The position numbers and the translations under genes were made by a program. Below the pieces are notes generated by a model that ran no database searches, was not told the DNA's origin, and saw only the letters and a list, made by a program, of their open reading frames with translations. A stretch of 64,000 nt of DNA from Maribellus maritimus (GTDB lineage: Bacteria > Bacteroidota > Bacteroidia > Bacteroidales > Prolixibacteraceae): NCBI RefSeq assembly GCF_022267315.1, contig NZ_JAIKLE010000001.1, positions 124,001-188,000 of the forward strand, given 5' to 3'. This document shows, in pieces, positions 10,364 to 22,590 of the stretch. Position 1 is the stretch's first letter; every line of letters begins with the position of its first letter.

Positions 10364-11377
10364 CTATATAATTTCATACCTACTGGCTCCGGTTTCGACA
10401 AAAGAAATAATGCTTTGCAGTGCACAATTCACCATACTGCTTACTGCGGCATCAGTATAAAATGCAATATGCTGTGTCATAATCACATTGGGAAACTGTC
10501 GCATGTAAGCCATATCGCGATTGCTGATAATATCATTCCTACGGTCGAGGTGGTATATCCCGGTTTCATTTTCAAAAACATCCAAGGCCAGCGCACCAAT
10601 TTTCTGCATTTCAATTCGCTTAACAACATCTGGTATATTCATTAACTCACCACGGGCGCAATTCACTAAAATAACGCCATCCTTCATTTTTTCTATTGCA
10701 TCAGCATTTACCATCCGGCGGGTTTCTTCCTTTAACGGAATATGAAAACTTATTATGTCCGACTTTTTGTATAACTCATCCAAAGATACATAGCTTGCCA
10801 GTCCTTCAATATGTTCTTTTTTTGAATTGCTGTGTGCCAAAATTTCACATCCAAATCCGGAGAGATTTTTAATTACCTGTTCACCAATACTTCCTGTCCC
10901 GATTATACCAACAGTAAGATTTCTCAGTTCCTTACCACGCAAACCTGGTAAAGAATAGTCGTTTATATTTGCGCGATACATAGCCTGCTTATATTTGCGC
11001 AAGGACATCAGAATCAGCATTACAGTATAATCGGCGACTCCGTTTGGCGCATAACGGGCGGTACTAATTTTAATCCCTAAGCTTTTGGCAGCCGACACAT
11101 CAATATGATTGTATCCAATGGTACGGGTAGCAATACTTCTAACTCCCATCTTGTGTAGCTTTTGTAACAGGCCTTTATCAATCAAACTATGCCCTAAAAT
11201 AGTTACGGCGATGCTTCCTTCTGCCAAATCAAGTGAGCTGTCGCTCAACACCCCGGAAGTGTAAAGCACATGAATGTTAAGTGCTTTTGCCTGTTCTTCA
11301 AAAAATATTCTTTCGTCATCTCTAAGCTCATAAGCTGTAATCTGAATCTTAGTTCTTCCCATTGTCTCAATTTTCAT
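10364..11377 (-). CDS. D-2-hydroxyacid dehydrogenase, VanH/D-lactate dehydrogenase-like
   Basis: NAD-dependent D-isomer-specific 2-hydroxyacid dehydrogenase, 337 residues. The Rossmann signature TVGIIGTGSIGEQVIKNL is near residue 155; catalytic residues of the family appear in NCARGELMN (Arg), ALDVFENETG (Glu) and MTQHIAFYT (His). The segments RSIATRTIGYNHIDVSAAKSLG and YAPNGVADYTVMLILMSLR strongly recall VanH and fermentative D-lactate dehydrogenases. No vanA-type ligase is nearby, so pyruvate reduction to D-lactate is the more likely role. Either Met1 or the internal Met6 (11362) could start translation; a -7 element at 11403-11410 lies just upstream. Confidence 0.9.
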   Translation of the reverse strand: MKIETMGRTKIQITAYELRDDERIFFEEQAKALNIHVLYTSGVLSDSSLDLAEGSIAVTILGHSLIDKGLLQKLHKMGVRSIATRTIGYNHIDVSAAKSLGIKISTARYAPNGVADYTVMLILMSLRKYKQAMYRANINDYSLPGLRGKELRNLTVGIIGTGSIGEQVIKNLSGFGCEILAHSNSKKEHIEGLASYVSLDELYKKSDIISFHIPLKEETRRMVNADAIEKMKDGVILVNCARGELMNIPDVVKRIEMQKIGALALDVFENETGIYHLDRRNDIISNRDMAYMRQFPNVIMTQHIAFYTDAAVSSMVNCALQSIISFVETGASRYEII

Positions 11378-14802: not shown

Positions 14803-16599
14803 TCAATTTATTGCAGATACCCTGTTTAAAGCTTCCAAATACGCAGTTACCGGGTACATTTTTTCGTCGTACCAAAGCGAGGCAAAATACAGTCCAATGG
14901 GTGCTGATTTAAATCCGTTTCTCTGAATATATTTTTCAAGCCAAAACAAACCGGATTCACAAATTTCCTTGTTTCCTTCTGAAATAATTGCTGAAATCGC
15001 CAGCGAAGTTTCTTCAATGGTACCCGGAATATTTTTATCACCGCCCCAGCTACCGTCTTTATTTTGAAGCGAAATCAGAAAATCGTTTCCTTTCTGAATC
15101 ATCATTTCCAACTTCTGTTTTATTTTTTCAGAATGCCATTGATGTGTCGCAGCATCTTTTAAATACGTCACTACTTTTGCTGTTCCGTAAACCGGATTCA
15201 AATGTCCATCGTTCATTTGGTTGCCAAACCAAAGCGGTAGCCAGCTTCCGTTTTCCGATTGCTCCTTCTCCAGATAACTCAACGCCCTGGTAAAAATGTC
15301 TTCCAGGATTCGAACATCTTTGCTTTCCATTTCATCCCTGTAAGTTTCCAGAACTAAGGAAACCGCCAATAAACAGTGCCCGGTCAAATCCGAACAACTC
15401 TGGTCAAACGGTAATTTGCCCCAACCTCTCGAAAAAGTTGGAAAACCACCATCGTTATTTCGCAATTCTTTTAACCATTTTGCACCAGCTAACACTTCAT
15501 TCTTCACCATTTCTTTGGGTTGAAGTTTTAACAGTGCCAGAATAACTCCGGGCGTGTCATCTCCATCAGGAACGGAACCTGAGAAGTTGGTCCAGCCCCA
15601 ACCTCCCGGGCCAGTTCCATTAAACGAATGAACTCGAATATTCTGAATCAATTTAAAATGATCCGCAATTTTATCTTGCTGATCAGTCGTTAAAAATCCG
15701 TTCAGATTCTCACGATATGCTTTTACGGAAAGCGAAGTTACCCAGGTTGATAAATCCACATCAATTGGCCAGCCGCCGTCTTCACGTTGCGTTCGTTTTA
15801 AAAATTGAATTCCCTTTTTTACCACCTCGGTTTCAGCAAAACCTGAATTTATCAAACTTAAAGCAACAAAGGCAGTCAAAGGAATTGCTTCCAGAAAGCC
15901 ACCACTTTCAGGCAACATTTTATGCAAAATCTTCATTGCTTTTTGAATAGAAAACTTCCGAATTATTCGCCAAAAAAGATTCGATTTTTTCTTTTTAAAA
16001 ATTACAATTCCAACGGCTACCAAGGCCGGAATAGCATAACTCACCACGCTTAAATTCAGCAATCGGTAAAAGCGCCGGGGCAATAAAGAAAGTTCAAAAG
16101 GCAATTGAGGAATGTGATTAAACGCGTCTTCGCCCGGAACGTTGCAAAGTCCGCACATGGCCAAAATAGGTACCGAAAACGTGTAATCTTTTTGGTAATG
16201 CGCCAAAATAAATTCAGCTACTTGCGGCGAATTCACATCAATTTTCAACGAGTTCAAATAAACAGCAATTTTTCGTTGCGTTTCTTTTACCGACTTTTCT
16301 TTTGCAGAATATAAATTCAAAGCCGCATAAACCAGTAAACTTGTACTTACATTCCCTGGACTTTCCGGCGTGTCTCCATAACTTCCGTCGGGGTTTATAT
16401 TTTTTCGCAGCCACAAAATCCCTTTCTGAATTTCTTTAGAATTCCGTTTTGCATCATCAAAATGTAAAGCCGCAACAGCTACAGCAACACCCAGTGCACT
16501 CGAAGAAAGCTGTCCTTCCCAAAAACCTTCGGGCTTTAATTCCGAGGCTACAAATCGCCCAACTTCATTTATTTTATCTTGTAATATTTTGCTGTCCAT
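14803..16599 (-). CDS. Squalene-hopene cyclase-like class II terpene cyclase
   Basis: 598-residue protein of the squalene-hopene/oxidosqualene cyclase superfamily, with two alpha-barrel domains built from prenyltransferase/squalene-oxidase repeats. The class II acid motif DXDD is present as DGDD at residues 345-348 (VPDGDDTPG). QW-type repeats include DGGWPIDVDLSTW, GGWGWTNFSGS, DGGFPTFSRGWG, NGSWLPLWFG and DGSWGGDKN. A hydrophobic segment at residues 183-200 may be the membrane-entry region. It is about 30 residues shorter than typical hopene cyclases and has lost several of their aromatic positions, so the substrate may not be squalene. It is the last gene of the terpenoid operon, 1 base from the ABC ATPase gene. 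Confidence 0.87.
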   Translation of the reverse strand: MDSKILQDKINEVGRFVASELKPEGFWEGQLSSSALGVAVAVAALHFDDAKRNSKEIQKGILWLRKNINPDGSYGDTPESPGNVSTSLLVYAALNLYSAKEKSVKETQRKIAVYLNSLKIDVNSPQVAEFILAHYQKDYTFSVPILAMCGLCNVPGEDAFNHIPQLPFELSLLPRRFYRLLNLSVVSYAIPALVAVGIVIFKKKKSNLFWRIIRKFSIQKAMKILHKMLPESGGFLEAIPLTAFVALSLINSGFAETEVVKKGIQFLKRTQREDGGWPIDVDLSTWVTSLSVKAYRENLNGFLTTDQQDKIADHFKLIQNIRVHSFNGTGPGGWGWTNFSGSVPDGDDTPGVILALLKLQPKEMVKNEVLAGAKWLKELRNNDGGFPTFSRGWGKLPFDQSCSDLTGHCLLAVSLVLETYRDEMESKDVRILEDIFTRALSYLEKEQSENGSWLPLWFGNQMNDGHLNPVYGTAKVVTYLKDAATHQWHSEKIKQKLEMMIQKGNDFLISLQNKDGSWGGDKNIPGTIEETSLAISAIISEGNKEICESGLFWLEKYIQRNGFKSAPIGLYFASLWYDEKMYPVTAYLEALNRVSAIN

Positions 16600-16600
16600 T

Positions 16601-17284
16601 CTACTTCGTCAATTCATTAATCAGTTCAAGATTGTCATTTTCAATCTTCGCAAAAACTTCCTGTTCAAATTCAGAAAAACCGCTTCTATCTCTCGTAAAT
16701 TTTATAACACCTCCCTCCAAATAATGAATAAAATCACACAAATTTGTCAAAGTCTCAATGATATGAGAAGTTACAATTATGGTCTTATTTTTCTCTTTCA
16801 AACGCAACAAAATCATTCGAATTATCCGGTTTGTTTCGATATCCAATCCGTTGAATGGCTCATCCAAAATCATTAACGACTTATCTTGTTTCAGAATTCC
16901 CAACAAGGCCAGTTTCTTTTTCATTCCGGTTGAATAACCATCGATAATCCGATCGAGAGGAAGCCCAAAAAGCCGGTTCCATTCTTCCGTTTTAAAAGCA
17001 TCGTTTTTAAACAGATTTAAATACTCACGCCCGGTAATATTCAAGTAGAAAAAATTCTCAGTTACCAAATACGCAACGGCTTTCTTATTCAATTTATGAT
17101 CATCAAAAAGCATCGTTCCTGCATCTGCCTTTTTTAACCCAAACAACGTATTTAAAAGCGTAGTTTTTCCCGCTCCGTTCAAGCCAACAATGCCATGAAT
17201 AAAACCCTCTTTCATCGACAGATTCAAATCGTCGATAACTTTTTTTCCGTTGTATGATATGGTAAGATTGCTAATTGTAATCAT
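16601..17284 (-). CDS. ABC transporter ATP-binding protein
   Basis: 227-residue ATPase of an ABC transporter. Walker A is GLNGAGKTTLL (near residue 34), the signature region is GYSTGMKKKLALLG, Walker B is LMILDEPFNGLD and the switch His is in VTSHIIETL. It overlaps the permease gene by 14 bases and precedes the cyclase gene by 1 base, so the pair is embedded in the terpenoid operon. Single-domain ATPase plus six-helix permease is the layout of ABC-2-like exporters, suggesting export or membrane-leaflet movement of the pathway product; that role is inference. Confidence 0.92.
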   Translation of the reverse strand: MITISNLTISYNGKKVIDDLNLSMKEGFIHGIVGLNGAGKTTLLNTLFGLKKADAGTMLFDDHKLNKKAVAYLVTENFFYLNITGREYLNLFKNDAFKTEEWNRLFGLPLDRIIDGYSTGMKKKLALLGILKQDKSLMILDEPFNGLDIETNRIIRMILLRLKEKNKTIIVTSHIIETLTNLCDFIHYLEGGVIKFTRDRSGFSEFEQEVFAKIENDNLELINELTK

Positions 17285-18215
17285 TTAAGTAAAAATTCAG
17301 ATTATCTACTGACTTTATATAAAACCAAACCGTTAAAAACCAAACGACAGGAAGAAAAACAGGAATAATACTTCCAACCGTGCCAATTGCAACGAAAGTT
17401 TGAGCTGCAGGAGATTTTTCATTTGATTTAAAAAAAGCATATTTTGCTGTAATGCCGAAAACCAAAAGACTACAAAAAATCAAATATTCAGCCACGGAAA
17501 AGTACCAGTTTTCAGGATGAAACAAAACGAATAAAGCAAGCAACGGCAAAACAGGAATTGAGAACAACTGAATTTGTCGCTTTATTTTTAACTTCAATAA
17601 CTTTGAGGCGTTTATTTCATAAGCCAATAAAACCTGGTAGGGCTCGCACTTTTCAAAAAAACCAAGAATTAAAATCCCAAAAACAAAAATTACGATAGGC
17701 ACACTTCCAATAAAAAAGCTGGTTCCCGCTGCAATAATCCATAGTGGCACAATCACAAAAAAATGTTTCCGAACTCCCGATTTCCATTCAACAGCATCGA
17801 CTGGAATTAACTTTTGAAGCTTGGTATTTAAGTTGGAATATCTTGTTTTAAAATCGATGCTCGGAACAATTACCAGACCCGCCAGAAAACTTAATGCAAT
17901 CCATTGTTTATGAATCAAAAAACAAATGATTACCGGAAGTGCTAACACAAGATATTCTGAAAATAGCAACATTTTATACGAAGAGAAATGCGTTTTCAGA
18001 AACAATTTGTCTTCCCTTTTTACCTGAACGTAAAACACTAAAAGTAAAAATCCGATACTGATGTATTTTGAGACCACCTCATCAGCGCTTTTAACATACA
18101 AAGCAAAACCGGCAAAGGCAAGCAGCGCAATTAAAAAAAGCATCCGAAACAGGCCGATTCCGACGATTCCTCTGGATATTTGTTTTAGTCGTATAGTTAA
18201 TAGAGCTTTTATCAT
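17271..18215 (-). CDS. ABC transporter permease-like membrane protein
   Basis: 314-residue integral membrane protein with about eight hydrophobic segments, grouped in pairs (for example IGLFRMLFLIALLAFAGFAL near the N-terminus, YLVLALPVIICFLI, and IIPVFLPVVWFLTVWFYI near the C-terminus). It overlaps the ATPase gene by 14 bases and so is almost certainly its membrane partner. The sequence does not carry a motif that I can assign to a known ABC permease subfamily. It lies 9 bases after the preceding cyclase-fold gene. Confidence 0.85.
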   Translation of the reverse strand: MIKALLTIRLKQISRGIVGIGLFRMLFLIALLAFAGFALYVKSADEVVSKYISIGFLLLVFYVQVKREDKLFLKTHFSSYKMLLFSEYLVLALPVIICFLIHKQWIALSFLAGLVIVPSIDFKTRYSNLNTKLQKLIPVDAVEWKSGVRKHFFVIVPLWIIAAGTSFFIGSVPIVIFVFGILILGFFEKCEPYQVLLAYEINASKLLKLKIKRQIQLFSIPVLPLLALFVLFHPENWYFSVAEYLIFCSLLVFGITAKYAFFKSNEKSPAAQTFVAIGTVGSIIPVFLPVVWFLTVWFYIKSVDNLNFYLNDYN

Positions 18216-18224
18216 GCAATAAAA

Positions 18225-19073
18225 TCAATGCTCATTTTTTGAAAGCGCTCCCAAAGTTAGCAAACCATAAAAAGTATATTCCAAATCGCGGGAAGAATCT
18301 CCGTCGCCCGATAAAAAAGCGCCATTTTCATAATTTCCCTGAACCAAATCCAGACAATCGGGTGCAAGTACCCGTAAATCCTGTCCAATTGTTTTCAAAG
18401 TAAAAAGCGCAACTGCCGTCGAAAGCAAATCAGCATTCGGTTGTTCCGGAAAAACTTTAAATCCTTCCCCTTTTTCAAAATAATGCAACAAGTTTTCAGC
18501 TTCATGTTTCACATTTTTCCCAGTTAAAAATTTAGCCATTAACAGCGCGGCAGAAAAACTACACGGTAAATCTTCGGGTAGTTTGTAGAATTTCAAAAAT
18601 ATCCGCACGAAAAAATAGACGACGCTGTTTTTTCCGAACAAAGCATCAAAACTGAGCACAAACAGAAAAAATCGGTAGGCTGTATTTACATTCTTTCCAC
18701 TTTTTGAAAGCCAACGAAGCAACTCAAAAAAGGATGGCTTTTGAAATTTCTCCTCCTCCAGCGACAAAAGAATTAACAACCAAGAAAATTTATCGATTAC
18801 CTTTTTTTCATCGTGCTGAAAAGTCGAAATATGTTGACTTAATTTTGTTAACTGCTCATTCAATTTTAACCCTTTGGAGAGCCAGCATCCAAACAACGAA
18901 TAATACAAATCGGGACTTCCGGCGCGATCTGTAAAAGCTCCGTTTTTATGTTGTTGTGTTCTTATGAATTCAGCGACTTCTGCCCTACTCGCTTTATTGA
19001 GCAACAAAAATCCTTTTTCCATTTCAGAAATAAACTGACGATAAACGGGTTGGTATGAATTCGGGCCACTCAC
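18225..19073 (-). CDS. Terpenoid-cyclase-fold (prenyltransferase repeat) protein
   Basis: 282-residue protein with repeats of the prenyltransferase/squalene-oxidase alpha-barrel type: FIRTQQHKNGAFTDRAGSPD followed by LYYSLFGCWL, and at the C-terminus NYENGAFLSGDGDSSRDLEY followed by TFYGLLTLGAL. No DXDD acid motif is seen, and the length fits a single alpha-barrel domain. It may be a non-catalytic partner of the DGDD cyclase, or bind an isoprenyl substrate like protein-prenyltransferase beta subunits. It is 1 base downstream of the prenyl synthase stop in the same operon. Confidence 0.75.
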   Translation of the reverse strand: MSGPNSYQPVYRQFISEMEKGFLLLNKASRAEVAEFIRTQQHKNGAFTDRAGSPDLYYSLFGCWLSKGLKLNEQLTKLSQHISTFQHDEKKVIDKFSWLLILLSLEEEKFQKPSFFELLRWLSKSGKNVNTAYRFFLFVLSFDALFGKNSVVYFFVRIFLKFYKLPEDLPCSFSAALLMAKFLTGKNVKHEAENLLHYFEKGEGFKVFPEQPNADLLSTAVALFTLKTIGQDLRVLAPDCLDLVQGNYENGAFLSGDGDSSRDLEYTFYGLLTLGALSKNEH

Positions 19074-19074
19074 C

Positions 19075-20649
19075 TTAGGATTTAAAAACTTTTCCCATAA
19101 CTCCGTATAAACTTAGGCGTAATTTCTTATTTTGAAGTTTATCCAGTTTCGTGTAACATTTTTGTACGTAGTCAGCGAGGTATTTGTCGGCTGTAATTTC
19201 GGTGTTGTGTTGTTCAAAACTCTCAAGCAAAACATCAAAATTTTCGGTTTTGATAATGTCTGAAAAAGTAGGAGAATGACCGTTAATACTTTGTTTCAAC
19301 AACGACAACAAAAATGGAAAATCGAAAGCATGTTTCAGGTGATTGGTTTCGCGGAGCTCATTTAAATCGTCACGAATTTGATAGGCAATTCCAAAATATT
19401 CAGCAAATTCAGATAAGATCTGAAGTTCGGATTCCGCGGCATTTCCAGTAATCGCGCCAGTCATTAATGCTACTTTCACTGCTTCACCGGTTTTCTGTTC
19501 AAAAATCCGCAGAATTTCATCCACCGATTTTTGCGCAATGTTTTGCTGCAAAAGAATGTCTGCGCCCTGCCCTTCCGAAAGATTTAAATGCGATGTAGCC
19601 ACCACTTTTAAACAATCCGCTTTAACTTTTGCATCGCAAGGCACACTGGCCAGTAGCTGATAACCTTTGCCAATTAAATAATCGCCAATATTAATTGCAA
19701 CGGGCACTCCAACAGTTTTGTGCAAGGCCGGTTGCTCATAACGAAAATCCTCCTCGTCCTGAATATCGTCGTGTACCAACGATGCTTTGTGAAAACACTC
19801 AATAATCACAGCCAGCGCCGATTGCACTTCTTCGGAAATTTCCTTTGTATATGATTGATACGTAAGCAAGGCCAACAGCGGCCGCATGCGTTGTCCGCCC
19901 AGCGCCATCGTTTTTAAAGCCAGTTTCTCGGTATCTGTATTCCCCTGAAAAAATCGGGCTAAACTTTCCTCCAAAAAATATTCCTGTACCTGATTTTTTA
20001 TCATCGAGACGGAAAGTGGCTGAAATTCTGTTTTATCTGTAATCTGCTCAATTTCTGAAAAAAGCCATTCATAGTCGAGGGAAGTATTCTTGCAACCATC
20101 GTACAAAAGTGGCAGCCCGATTACCGGAACTGCAGCGCGTGAAACCGGGTCAAACGAATTTTGCAACACCGGCATACAACTTACGCCAATCACTGCATCA
20201 ATAGAACCTTCTTCCACCAAACCAATGGCAACCGTAGTTCCTTCGGCCACAAGTGTTGAATATCCCAACTCCTCTGCCCTTCCGAGAATATCGTCAATCT
20301 GGCAACCTTTGCAGCCTGCGCAAATTAATCCCAACTCATCAAACACACCTTTGCATTGCAGATTATTTCGCAGACACTGTGGCAACAATAAAAGTCGTCG
20401 ATTGAAAGGTGTTGCATTCACTACGTCGCGCCATGTTTCATTTCCCAGTAAAACAATGGTAAAATCCAGAAATTCTTCATCCAGATTTAAATGCGTCAAA
20501 AGTTCTTTCGAACCGCTCTCCAGCAACTCAAATGAAGCCGGTGGCAAAATATTTTTTTCAGCAGCAAACACAGCAACTTCTTTCCGCAACAATTCACGGA
20601 TTTGCTTGTCTTTTGGAACTTTTAATATGCGTCTTTTTTTTACTGCCAT
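19075..20649 (-). CDS. DUF116-polyprenyl synthetase fusion
   Basis: 524-residue two-domain protein. Residues about 20-200 are DUF116-like, with the cysteine pattern QCLRNNLQC followed by CAGCKGC (Cys92, 99, 110, 113, 116), suggesting a metal or Fe-S site. Residues about 225-524 are an E-type isoprenyl diphosphate synthase: GGQRMRP at 251-257, first Asp-rich motif DDIQD at 294-298 and second motif DDLNE at 427-431, where the last Asp is Glu. It should condense isopentenyl units to a polyprenyl diphosphate; chain length is not predictable here. An upstream ATG would add 20 residues but would run into the preceding gene; ATG 20649 lies two bases after that gene's stop and is preferred. Confidence 0.88.
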   Translation of the reverse strand: MAVKKRRILKVPKDKQIRELLRKEVAVFAAEKNILPPASFELLESGSKELLTHLNLDEEFLDFTIVLLGNETWRDVVNATPFNRRLLLLPQCLRNNLQCKGVFDELGLICAGCKGCQIDDILGRAEELGYSTLVAEGTTVAIGLVEEGSIDAVIGVSCMPVLQNSFDPVSRAAVPVIGLPLLYDGCKNTSLDYEWLFSEIEQITDKTEFQPLSVSMIKNQVQEYFLEESLARFFQGNTDTEKLALKTMALGGQRMRPLLALLTYQSYTKEISEEVQSALAVIIECFHKASLVHDDIQDEEDFRYEQPALHKTVGVPVAINIGDYLIGKGYQLLASVPCDAKVKADCLKVVATSHLNLSEGQGADILLQQNIAQKSVDEILRIFEQKTGEAVKVALMTGAITGNAAESELQILSEFAEYFGIAYQIRDDLNELRETNHLKHAFDFPFLLSLLKQSINGHSPTFSDIIKTENFDVLLESFEQHNTEITADKYLADYVQKCYTKLDKLQNKKLRLSLYGVMGKVFKS

Positions 20650-20651
20650 TT

Positions 20652-21827
20652 TTATCCGTATGCTCCCAATCCAAAAAATGCTCGTTTTTTTGCAAAGCGG
20701 TAAATCCACCCTTTTTCAGGAACAGGAGTTCCGGAACCGTGGCTTGGAACAAGTGGCATCGCTTTTAAACGTTCGGCCTCGTTTTCTCTTCCTGAAGAAT
20801 CTTTTGCATGGTATTTTTCGGTCGTTTCAACCAGCCATTTAGGGTCTTCCATAATTACACATCCCGATGTTTTCTTAGAAATTTCATTTCTTAAAGCTTC
20901 CAGAAAAACCGATTCCTTATATATTTTCTCAAGCGATTTATCCTCAACATTCTCAGCGGCAAACTGAATAACCGGGCAAGGTTCTACAAAACCCGATGCA
21001 TTGATGTGATGACTCAATCCGGTTGCTGCAGGGCAAAGTCCGTTTCCATCCTGATCCCAATATGCATCAATAATCGCAATATCAAACTGCGAGCGTGCAT
21101 CCACCATAAATTGCCGAAGCTTCTGAATTTCAGCTTTATCCAGCGCAAGTTCAACAGTTGAATCGGCTCCTACCGGGCGGTAAATATAATACCAAAGGTA
21201 AGCCACATTTTTCTGAATCAGCGATTTGATAAAATCAGCAGAAAGTGCCAAATCCATGTTGGATTTACAAACACTCATAGCCACACCGGTAATTAATCCT
21301 GAGTTAGTGGCATTTTCAACCGCTTCCACGGTCCGGCGAAAAACATTCTTTCCCCTACGGCGAACATCCGCCACCACTTCATCACCTTCAAAACTGATAA
21401 GCGGTGTTACATTTCCCAATTTCCGCAACTCTTCCGCCACTTCCGGCGTAAGTAATGTCCCGTTTGTAAACAACTGAAAATAACAATCCGGATGCTTTTT
21501 CAGAACCTCAAAAAGAGGTTTGTATGTTAATGGCTCGCCACCTAAAATTCCAAAAAAATAGGAACCTTTTGCTTTGGTCTCTTTGATAATCCGGTTCAAT
21601 GTTTCCGGCGACATGCGGGCATTTTTCTTTTTATGTGTCACCCAGCAGCCCTGGCAATTCAGATTACAATCGTCGGTAACCGAAATAAAATGAAAAGCCG
21701 GGAAAAAATCGCCGTTCTTCAGTCTTTTTTGATAACGCGCAAAACTCAGCGAACCTTTTACTCCCATGTTGTACACAAATTTGTACAAACACCTTCTATC
21801 TGTATTTTTAAGAATCCTTTTTATCAT
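20652..21827 (-). CDS. Radical SAM protein with SPASM-like C-terminus
   Basis: 391-residue radical SAM enzyme. The [4Fe-4S]-SAM motif CX3CX2C is DCNLNCQGCW at residues 54-61, preceded by FHFISVTD; FGILGGEPLTY is the GGEP motif. Further cysteines in GLCPAATG, EPCPVIQFA and SGCVIMEDP suggest auxiliary cluster binding as in SPASM/twitch enzymes. The frame extends upstream to 21941, but the ATG at 21827 overlaps the preceding Fe-S gene by only 20 bases and fits the operon better. The position between an Fe-S electron-transfer protein and a prenyl synthase suggests radical modification of an isoprenoid or of its carrier; the reaction is unknown. Confidence 0.9.
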   Translation of the reverse strand: MIKRILKNTDRRCLYKFVYNMGVKGSLSFARYQKRLKNGDFFPAFHFISVTDDCNLNCQGCWVTHKKKNARMSPETLNRIIKETKAKGSYFFGILGGEPLTYKPLFEVLKKHPDCYFQLFTNGTLLTPEVAEELRKLGNVTPLISFEGDEVVADVRRRGKNVFRRTVEAVENATNSGLITGVAMSVCKSNMDLALSADFIKSLIQKNVAYLWYYIYRPVGADSTVELALDKAEIQKLRQFMVDARSQFDIAIIDAYWDQDGNGLCPAATGLSHHINASGFVEPCPVIQFAAENVEDKSLEKIYKESVFLEALRNEISKKTSGCVIMEDPKWLVETTEKYHAKDSSGRENEAERLKAMPLVPSHGSGTPVPEKGWIYRFAKKRAFFGLGAYG

Positions 21828-22590
21828 TCTTTGTAAAATCCATTCCCAGTTTAAACTCGGCCAGTGCTTTTCGGCGTTCTTCCTCTGCTTGTTCAACAAC
21901 TCCCTGCCGGAAAATGTTCCGGCGGTTCTGATTGCGCGCATTCAATGTCGTAAGCAAACTTCCTTTATCAATCGACACCTTTTTTCCGTTGGGTTCGTCT
22001 CCTGCCAGCACTGTGTTTTCAGCCAAACGAGGAAACATAATCGCAGAAGTCGGACAGGTTCTTCCGCATGCCGGGCAACCATTTTTACAGGCCAGCGGAT
22101 CAACTACATTCAACTTTTTTTTATCGTAACTGTAAACGCCAAACAAACAAAATCGAGCGCACTTTCCGCAATTAGAACACAACAATTCATCAATTACGGG
22201 AAACCACGCCGGCACATCCAAATCGGTAATCTGAACCTGATAACGAGCTTCGCCTTTTTCAATTTTAAAATCATTCTCCAACTTCGATAAAATCTTGTCA
22301 GCCGACAATTCTTTAAAATTCAGCACCTCAAAATCACCAAAATCAATCCCGTTTTGCAGAAACATATTTTTAATTGCCCGCGGATAGCAGGCCACAATTA
22401 TCTTTTGCTGAAATTCTTTTCCAATGGTATTTAACACCTCTTTTTCGTTGATGGTCAAAGCACATAAATCCTGCAACTCAAAAAGATCTACATCGAGATT
22501 TTTTACGCCACCTAGGATTACATTCATTGTTTCCGGAGAAATGACCTGAGCTTTACAGCGACAAAAAAGAACACATGATTTTTTTTCCAT
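21808..22590 (-). CDS. HdrA-N-like dicluster Fe-S protein
   Basis: 260-residue redox protein. The N-terminal 100 residues resemble the start of heterodisulfide reductase HdrA (VLFCRC, DLCALTINEKE and KIIVACYPRAIKNMF, compare the ACSPR motif). A C-terminal ferredoxin domain binds two [4Fe-4S] clusters: CSNCGKCARFC at residues 138-148 and CKNGCPACGRTC at 168-179. It is the first gene of the terpenoid operon, with AAAGGAGG two bases before the ATG, and most likely supplies electrons to the radical SAM enzyme or the DUF116 domain. HdrA similarity is by motif recognition only. Confidence 0.85.
   Translation of the reverse strand: MEKKSCVLFCRCKAQVISPETMNVILGGVKNLDVDLFELQDLCALTINEKEVLNTIGKEFQQKIIVACYPRAIKNMFLQNGIDFGDFEVLNFKELSADKILSKLENDFKIEKGEARYQVQITDLDVPAWFPVIDELLCSNCGKCARFCLFGVYSYDKKKLNVVDPLACKNGCPACGRTCPTSAIMFPRLAENTVLAGDEPNGKKVSIDKGSLLTTLNARNQNRRNIFRQGVVEQAEEERRKALAEFKLGMDFTKNDKKDS

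Follow-up and report, generated by a model that had tools for sequence, protein, structure and literature searches.

A conserved five-gene cluster in Maribellus maritimus, combining a DUF116-polyprenyl synthase fusion with a divergent class II cyclase, as a candidate isoprenoid lipid pathway

The sequence analysed here, referred to below as the window, is a stretch of 64,000 nucleotides from Maribellus maritimus (NCBI RefSeq assembly GCF_022267315.1, contig NZ_JAIKLE010000001.1, positions 124,001 to 188,000 of the forward strand), whose genome assembly comprises 7.33 Mb in 201 contigs. Seven open reading frames (ORFs) on the minus strand, at 14803-22590 of the window, were examined. In the order of transcription they encode an iron–sulphur protein (FeS), a radical S-adenosylmethionine (SAM) enzyme (rSAM), a fusion of DUF116 with a polyprenyl synthase (PPS) domain (DUF116-PPS), a prenyltransferase-like toroid protein (PT1), the permease and the ATPase of an ATP-binding cassette (ABC) pair, and a class II cyclase (CYC). 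For the longest ORFs, the successive intergenic distances are -134, -58, 1, 9, -14 and 1 bases. In many relatives rSAM and the fusion begin later, and the matching Met codons here are at 21827 and 20649; with those starts, the first two junctions become a 20-base overlap and a 2-base gap. The positions of the genes and of their principal features are collected in Table 1.

Table 1. Genes and sequence features of the cluster in the window, with the alternative radical SAM genes of other loci (last row, coordinates of those loci)
Feature	Position	Strand	Basis
FeS, HdrA-N-like domain and two-[4Fe-4S] ferredoxin domain, proposed electron donor	21808..22590	-	ORF; Pfam/NCBIfam matches below cut-off
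rSAM, radical SAM enzyme	20652..21827 (longest ORF to 21941)	-	Pfam; relatives' starts near 21827
CxxxCxxC motif of rSAM, residues 92-99 of 429-aa ORF	21645..21668	-	81/81 aligned
DUF116-PPS, N-terminal DUF116 and trans-polyprenyl-synthase fold	19075..20649 (longest ORF to 20709)	-	Pfam, AlphaFold2, Foldseek
DUF116 domain, residues 70-218 of 544-aa ORF	20056..20502	-	Pfam E 2e-31
Polyprenyl-synthase domain, residues 265-453	19351..19917	-	Pfam match
Tyr codon at second Arg of RRG, residue 324 of 544-aa ORF	19738..19740	-	alignment of fusions
PT1, single alpha/alpha toroid; proposed partner or second isoprenoid-binding protein	18225..19073	-	profile, structure prediction
ABC permease, local insertion outside conserved core	17271..18215	-	0/120 loci
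ABC ATPase, local insertion outside conserved core	16601..17284	-	Pfam ABC_tran; 6/120 loci, weak identity
CYC, class II (squalene-hopene-cyclase-like) cyclase	14803..16599	-	Pfam, NCBIfam, tree
DGDD catalytic-acid motif (DxDD) of CYC, residues 345-348	15556..15567	-	aligned with DVDD of 1gsz
Different radical SAM	L091 1392-2912; L092 4710-6605; L096 2472-4331; L099 1-1788; L100 6662-8209; L114 5700-7496		

A sequence-only reading of the window had taken the seven genes for one operon, responsible for synthesis of an isoprenoid chain, its cyclisation, its radical modification and the export or flipping of the product by the ABC pair. All seven genes lie where that reading placed them, and the families that it assigned to FeS (dicluster Fe-S, HdrA-like), rSAM (radical SAM with extra cysteines) and PT1 (prenyltransferase repeats), like the DGDD motif of the cyclase, were recovered. 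The conserved unit, however, consists not of seven genes but of five, FeS, rSAM, DUF116-PPS, PT1 and CYC, which are collinear.

A survey of 149 genomes, those of relatives and the window's own, showed the fusion in 56, counting the window's own (matches with E values up to 1e-30). The cyclase, searched for independently, was found in exactly the same 56 genomes (E values up to 1e-40) and in none of the 93 others. This co-occurrence is not simply adjacency counted twice, since the cyclase and the fusion lie on different contigs in genomes G105, G147 and G051; the probability of identical sets arising by chance, approximately 2e-42, is blind to phylogeny and far too strong, since the genomes are related. 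Loci around the fusion were taken from 40 carrier genomes, one from each. All five core genes were present in 37, always in the order and on the strand seen in the window; the three that are short of the full core all sit on short stretches, and the complete set is present in all 33 loci where the fusion is flanked by 3.5 kb or more on each side.

Contigs were scanned more widely with an alignment of the fusion, and the best 80 of at least 587 confirmed stretches were used. By their record titles, these derive from Bacteroidota (26), Planctomycetota (20), Verrucomicrobiota including Lentisphaeria (27), Acidobacteriota (4) and Riflebacteria (1), with 2 unassigned. The full core was observed in 36 of the 80, of which 29 have the window's order, and in 24 of the 39 loci with enough flank. 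Four of these 80 repeat loci among the 40 described above, so that the total of 120 loci represents 116 distinct ones; L105 and L134 share one assembly, and the raw row counts include the duplicated loci L044/L086, L065/L073, L069/L081 and L060/L089 and the near copies L037/L076. No core partner was seen near the fusion in L101, L108 and L121. The genomes of L121, L138 and L139 have cyclase-family matches outside the fetched stretches, and that of L108 has a weak one (8e-6). It is apparent that the gene set is not peculiar to this genome, as the sequence-only reading had allowed that it might be, but spans at least five phyla. Searches of an open-access library yielded no account of it.

The distribution of the unit is nonetheless patchy, both among the 149 relatives and in a draw of 395 genomes from the phylum, where the fusion is rare: among the matches listed, the fused protein occurred only in the window's own genome, no other genome of the window's family appeared, and the next-best match (169 bits) covered the synthase part only. 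A tally of 196/395 from this draw was rejected as a count of fusions, since its E value limit of 1e-40 admitted ordinary polyprenyl synthases. Among named strains, the cluster is carried by Draconibacterium aestuarii and Mangrovibacterium lignilyticum, for example. A quick tree of the cyclases places that of G049 (locus L049), a member of the window's family, among those of distant Bacteroidota, and that of Labilibaculum (L125) beyond the main group of this phylum, without a firm position. Both placements are a hint that the cluster may have been transferred horizontally.

The ABC genes do not share in this conservation. At an E value of 1e-5, relatives of the permease were found in none of the 120 loci, and Pfam gave no match to it; the ATPase (Pfam ABC_tran, E value 8e-21) had matches in 6 of the 120 loci, all of them only 22-28% identical. 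In the nearest relative, L032 (genome G031, with a cyclase 87% identical), the approximately 1.07 kb between PT1 and CYC bear no resemblance to the ABC genes; in other relatives, PT1 and CYC either abut or are separated by as much as several hundred bases. Because the pair has no conserved relatives, and a different insert occupies this position in the nearest one, the ABC genes are regarded as a local insertion, and the interval between PT1 and CYC may be a hotspot for insertions. The role that the sequence-only reading gave to the ABC pair, exporting or flipping the product, was accordingly rejected, neither gene being conserved with the core. Examined by eye, the insert of L032 (7031-8100) repeats the end of PT1 and also contains a small toxin–antitoxin-like pair.

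CYC was matched by both Pfam families of the squalene-hopene cyclase (SQHop) superfamily (SQHop_cyclase_C, E value 1e-30; SQHop_cyclase_N, E value 1e-19). It aligns in pieces, mainly over residues 275-522 (profile E value 2e-27), with 1gsz, a squalene-hopene cyclase that we take to be from Alicyclobacillus. D345, D347 and D348 align with the DVDD of 1gsz and are invariant in all 78 cyclases aligned, of which 75 are distinct. His408, in the setting D-x-T-x-H, is equally invariant; its counterpart is Arg in eight canonical-type cyclases, and the 1gsz sequence contains DVTAH. The score of CYC against the squalene-hopene cyclase equivalog TIGR01507, 90.3 bits, is below the curated cut-off of 431.1. 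In the quick tree, 54 CYC rows (of 86 ORFs) were split from nine other SQHop proteins by a single branch, with a Shimodaira–Hasegawa-like approximate likelihood-ratio (SH-aLRT) value of 99; one of the nine, L172, is a very long branch without DxDD, and the other eight are canonical in that motif. CYC is the only SQHop-family protein of its own genome. One stop was observed inside the matched cyclase stretch in each of G011, G020, G033, G057, G078 and G147.

The supply of squalene was assessed with the squalene/phytoene synthase family SQS_PSY (PF00494). The window's own genome has one such protein, within a cluster that by eye resembles carotenoid synthesis; this cluster (L159 1533-8656, contig C114) includes CrtI-, CrtB-, IDI-, CrtZ- and lycopene-cyclase-like genes, all names but SQS_PSY having been given by eye. 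PF00494 was searched for in 45 of the 55 other carriers; the ten left out were G001, G011, G015, G016, G028, G035, G036, G051, G072 and G078, several of which are of low completeness, but G015, G016 and G078 are 94-99% and G036 and G051 91% complete. At an E value of 1e-5, no SQS_PSY protein was found in 11 of the 45, including the single-contig genomes G008 and G031, and in all 11 the cyclase match is free of stops and spans 587 or more of the 602 profile positions. Judged from these carriers, the pathway seems not to depend on a known squalene/phytoene synthase; uptake of the substrate or a diverged synthase may also account for them.

In DUF116-PPS, Pfam identified DUF116 (E value 2e-31) and polyprenyl_synt (E value 1e-41) in one protein, as the sequence-only reading had stated. 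Seven Cys residues of DUF116 (112, 119, 130, 133, 136, 178 and 206) are invariant in 105 of 105 rows, which represent 101 distinct fusions. The AlphaFold2 model has a mean predicted local distance difference test (pLDDT) score of 90.1, with a confident synthase part that Foldseek matched to the polyprenyl-synthase fold; the predicted secondary structure of DUF116 is mixed alpha/beta, and Cys 91, 157 and 185 (model numbering) follow soon after strands. The Asp pairs of both Asp-rich motifs, the first Arg and the Lys-Thr (KT) are invariant in the fusions, and the last residue of the second Asp-rich motif is Asp in 62 and Glu in 43 of the 105 rows.

In trans-polyprenyl synthases, the second Arg of RRG and the Lys of GGK bind isopentenyl diphosphate. 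In the fusions this full set is not present: the second Arg is replaced by Tyr in 99, His in 1 and Asn in 1 of the 101 distinct sequences (Tyr in 103 of 105 rows), and the position of the GGK Lys is occupied by Lys in 52 and Gln in 40. The accessible part of PMC7839719 does not settle the roles of the Arg residues. The replacement of the second Arg by Tyr makes ordinary elongation doubtful, and with it the chain synthesis that had been ascribed to this gene; two canonical polyprenyl synthases, both with RR intact, are encoded elsewhere in the same genome, which, with these and IspH, is able to supply prenyl diphosphates. We infer that the fusion may ionise an allylic diphosphate but use a partner other than isopentenyl diphosphate, with electrons at hand.

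The remaining core genes encode FeS, rSAM and PT1. FeS gave matches below the cut-offs to 4Fe-4S families in Pfam (E values 3e-4 to 4e-3) and to HdrA in NCBIfam (5e-9). It contains CxC, DLC and ACYPRA motifs, which we take to resemble those of the HdrA N-terminus, and two ferredoxin clusters, for which eight Cys residues in all are each present in 72 of 73 aligned sequences (73 of 101 ORFs kept). The HdrA-N and ferredoxin halves are encoded by separate neighbouring genes in several loci of Planctomycetota and Verrucomicrobiota. rSAM (Pfam radical SAM, E value 1e-20; nearest solved relative SkfB, E value 9e-17) has, besides CxxxCxxC, Cys 303, 322 and 361 in 81 of 81 aligned sequences and Cys 225 in 78 of them (81 of 92 ORFs kept), and the three extra invariant Cys could hold a second cluster of the SPASM/Twitch kind. 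PT1 was matched by Pfam Prenyltrans just under the cut-off (1e-5), and its model is a confident toroid (pLDDT 92.8). Its profile matches the beta subunit of Rab geranylgeranyltransferase (1.8e-11), in pieces of permuted order, and the same protein gave the top Foldseek matches, which are weak (best E value 1.3e-3, template modelling score approximately 0.4; none at 0.001 or better). Asp55, Asp215, Asp263, Glu265, Tyr57, Tyr58, Tyr266 and Tyr269 of PT1 are found in 80 of 80 sequences (77 distinct). The Zn ligands of protein prenyltransferase beta subunits are Asp, Cys and His, and no Cys or His is among the PT1 residues conserved in at least 90% of the 80 sequences.

Taken together, these data suggest that the five core genes probably form one pathway to a polycyclic isoprenoid lipid, each enzymatic step of which is put forward here as a proposal. 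The adjacency of the core across phyla, the co-distribution of fusion and cyclase, the DxDD motif and the carriers without SQS_PSY are the part of this proposal that can be read from the sequences themselves. The synthase domain of DUF116-PPS would bind and ionise an allylic prenyl diphosphate from the cell's ordinary synthases, and would join it to a partner other than isopentenyl diphosphate or reduce it. The Cys-rich DUF116 and the HdrA-N-like ferredoxin would pass electrons to this prenyl step, yielding a cyclisable chain without squalene synthase. CYC would then cyclise the chain by proton attack, PT1 serving as a toroid partner or as a carrier, and rSAM, fed by the same ferredoxin, would make a radical modification. 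Since no exporter is conserved, the product is probably retained in the cell envelope. Of the operon first proposed, an isoprenoid pathway apart from hopanoid synthesis thus survives, transport by the ABC pair does not, and ordinary chain synthesis is doubtful. There is a real chance that the prenyl step is new chemistry. A more specific version, in which DUF116-PPS couples or reduces prenyl diphosphates with Fe-S electrons, replaces the NADPH-dependent squalene synthase and provides a novel clade of class II cyclases with the precursors of cyclic triterpenoid-like lipids, is speculative and rather unlikely; if true, it would mean an oxygen-independent route widespread in Bacteroidota, Planctomycetota, Verrucomicrobiota and Acidobacteriota.

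Several observations weigh against this pathway. Of 30 carrier genomes, ten contain in addition a strong match to a canonical-type cyclase (E value 1e-70 or better; two of these matches are cut by a contig end) together with at least one weaker cyclase match, so that two kinds of cyclase coexist and squalene is probably present in those ten. One or two SQS_PSY proteins occur in 34 of the 45 carriers searched; genomic context was viewed for the single one of the window's own genome. The GGK Lys is retained in 52 of 101 fusions, and the isopentenyl-diphosphate site is therefore not uniformly lost. The top 50 rows of the Foldseek search with the fusion are all polyprenyl synthases, with none for DUF116. 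At least one core gene is absent nearby in 15 of the 39 roomy loci of the wider scan, and L092, L096 and L114 carry another radical SAM protein instead of rSAM. The co-occurrence test covered only the fusion and the cyclase, the other three core genes being linked to them by adjacency. Finally, the cyclase of G006 is split into two matches (G006:C1:1298946-1300732), and the pathway may be decaying in that genome.

Other explanations for the core were considered. In the first, the fusion makes an ordinary polyprenyl chain of altered length, which is cyclised as the diphosphate, and DUF116 serves only to regulate or stabilise. The Asp pairs and the allylic-side residues are indeed intact, and in every one of the 105 rows small residues (Ala, Ser) precede the first Asp-rich motif, as is typical of long-chain synthases. 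Fungi, moreover, are known to cyclise hexaprenyl diphosphate to C30 products independently of squalene (PMC9177416). The near-universal Tyr at the second Arg argues the other way, and a fused Cys-rich domain with seven invariant Cys would be odd as a mere scaffold; this explanation is accordingly considered somewhat unlikely, while being the best placed of the alternatives.

A second explanation derives from the genes that surround the core. ORF families of at least 90 amino acids were grouped over 121 stretches, using gene maps from a mechanical ORF picker, which contain antisense artefacts (group c10). No sixth family of this length is common to most loci, the next most frequent occurring in 24 of the 121; shorter precursor peptides were not searched for. 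A CobW-type GTPase is near the core in 24 of the 121 stretches, four of them Bacteroidota, and a GcvH-like protein in 14, with a lipoyl-type lysine in 13, the other ORF having been mis-picked. Both lie upstream of the core in L098 (220-1824), L107 (4577-6282) and L112 (4723-6334), and L129 has a cysteine-desulfurase-type protein beside it. After the core, PQQ-type beta-propellers and NapG/NapH-like Fe-S proteins were observed in L048, L049, L130, L144, L148 and L150, five of which also have an NHL-type protein. These families were tested on members from L048 and L148, with the NapG label assigned by eye, and the runs of genes extend, for example, over L048 13387-19901, L130 13643-19381 and L148 12984-19218, in some Bacteroidota and Riflebacteria. 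Neighbours of these kinds fit a redox-hungry pathway but do not show one. If the PQQ-type and NapG/NapH-like genes are taken at face value, the core might make or tailor a membrane redox carrier, such as a quinone whose side chain is cyclised, that serves a linked electron-transport chain. That is improbable: the PQQ/Nap genes are absent beside the core in the window, they are found in few of the 121 stretches (PQQ propellers 19, NapH and NHL types 8 each, NapG types 7), and no quinone-modifying gene was seen in the core. In six Planctomycetota loci, a radical SAM protein of another kind adjoins the core (Table 1); that of L091 matches TIGR04013 (B12-binding/radical SAM), below the cut-off. 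Elsewhere in the window, at 10364-11377, is a D-2-hydroxyacid dehydrogenase whose resemblance to VanH D-lactate dehydrogenases scores 301 bits, below the cut-off of 540.

A variant of the hopanoid pathway must also be weighed, in which CYC would be a fast-evolving, squalene-fed squalene-hopene cyclase and rSAM would act in the role of HpnH. The canonical pathway uses HpnC/D/E or squalene synthase (SQS), then squalene-hopene cyclase and HpnH. CYC does belong to the SQHop superfamily and has the same acid motif; HpnH is likewise a radical SAM enzyme, and rSAM scores as a distant relative of it. That score, however, is 38.6 bits against a cut-off of 225, and no HpnH above the cut-off was found in the window's own genome. 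The quick tree, which supplies the comparison with squalene-hopene cyclases that the sequence-only reading had called for, separates CYC from the canonical set, in agreement with the divergence that it had claimed; a canonical-type and a weaker cyclase match stand side by side in 10 of 30 carriers; and the lone SQS_PSY protein of this genome lies in a carotenoid-like setting. Because the cyclase groups apart and 11 of 45 carriers are without a squalene/phytoene synthase, identity with the hopanoid pathway is thought unlikely, the variant form quite improbable, and the separation from hopanoid synthesis that had been claimed is supported. Least probable is a system for the prenylation of proteins or peptides, suggested by the Rab geranylgeranyltransferase-like profile of PT1 and by the resemblance of rSAM to the peptide maturase SkfB, since no sixth family of at least 90 amino acids recurs in most loci (shorter precursors not having been searched for), there is no recognisable alpha subunit, and such a system would leave the class II cyclase without a function.

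Cyclic triterpenoids are important molecular fossils, and the organisms that make them are inferred from genes for squalene synthase and cyclase. A class II cyclase pathway that operates without known squalene synthases in at least five phyla would bring hitherto unrecognised lipid producers into that record. It would also give a function to the uncharacterised DUF116 family, and may reveal prenyl chemistry driven by Fe-S electrons; the tight co-occurrence of its genes makes it testable in the named carrier strains.

The same domain fusion has been described before. In PMC5898192 (2015), DUF116 is fused to a polyprenyl synthetase in Psta_0175 of Pirellula staleyi, and electron transfer and a flavodoxin-like fold are proposed for DUF116; the accessible part of that paper names no cyclase, radical SAM partner or pathway. 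With the trans-polyprenyl diphosphate synthases 1wy0 and 3p8l, the fusion shares the fold, the Asp pairs, the first Arg and KT, and it differs from them in the Tyr at the second Arg and in the fused DUF116. FeS has the dicluster ferredoxin and the CxC and CPR-type motifs of HdrA, but at 260 amino acids it has no room for the flavin domain. PT1 resembles the beta subunit of Rab geranylgeranyltransferase in its alpha/alpha toroid fold, but the profile pieces match in permuted order and an alpha subunit was not recognised. The likeness of CYC to the Alicyclobacillus-type squalene-hopene cyclase consists in the aligned acid motif and the profile match, but is piecewise only, and CYC has conserved blocks of its own, such as GWGKLPFD. 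With the hopanoid pathway as a whole, the locus shares a class II cyclase that belongs to the same superfamily and has DxDD, and a radical SAM enzyme nearby; in contrast to that pathway, it has no squalene synthase in its set and an rSAM that falls below the HpnH cut-off, and it includes DUF116-PPS, the HdrA-N ferredoxin and PT1, three components beyond the hopanoid gene set.

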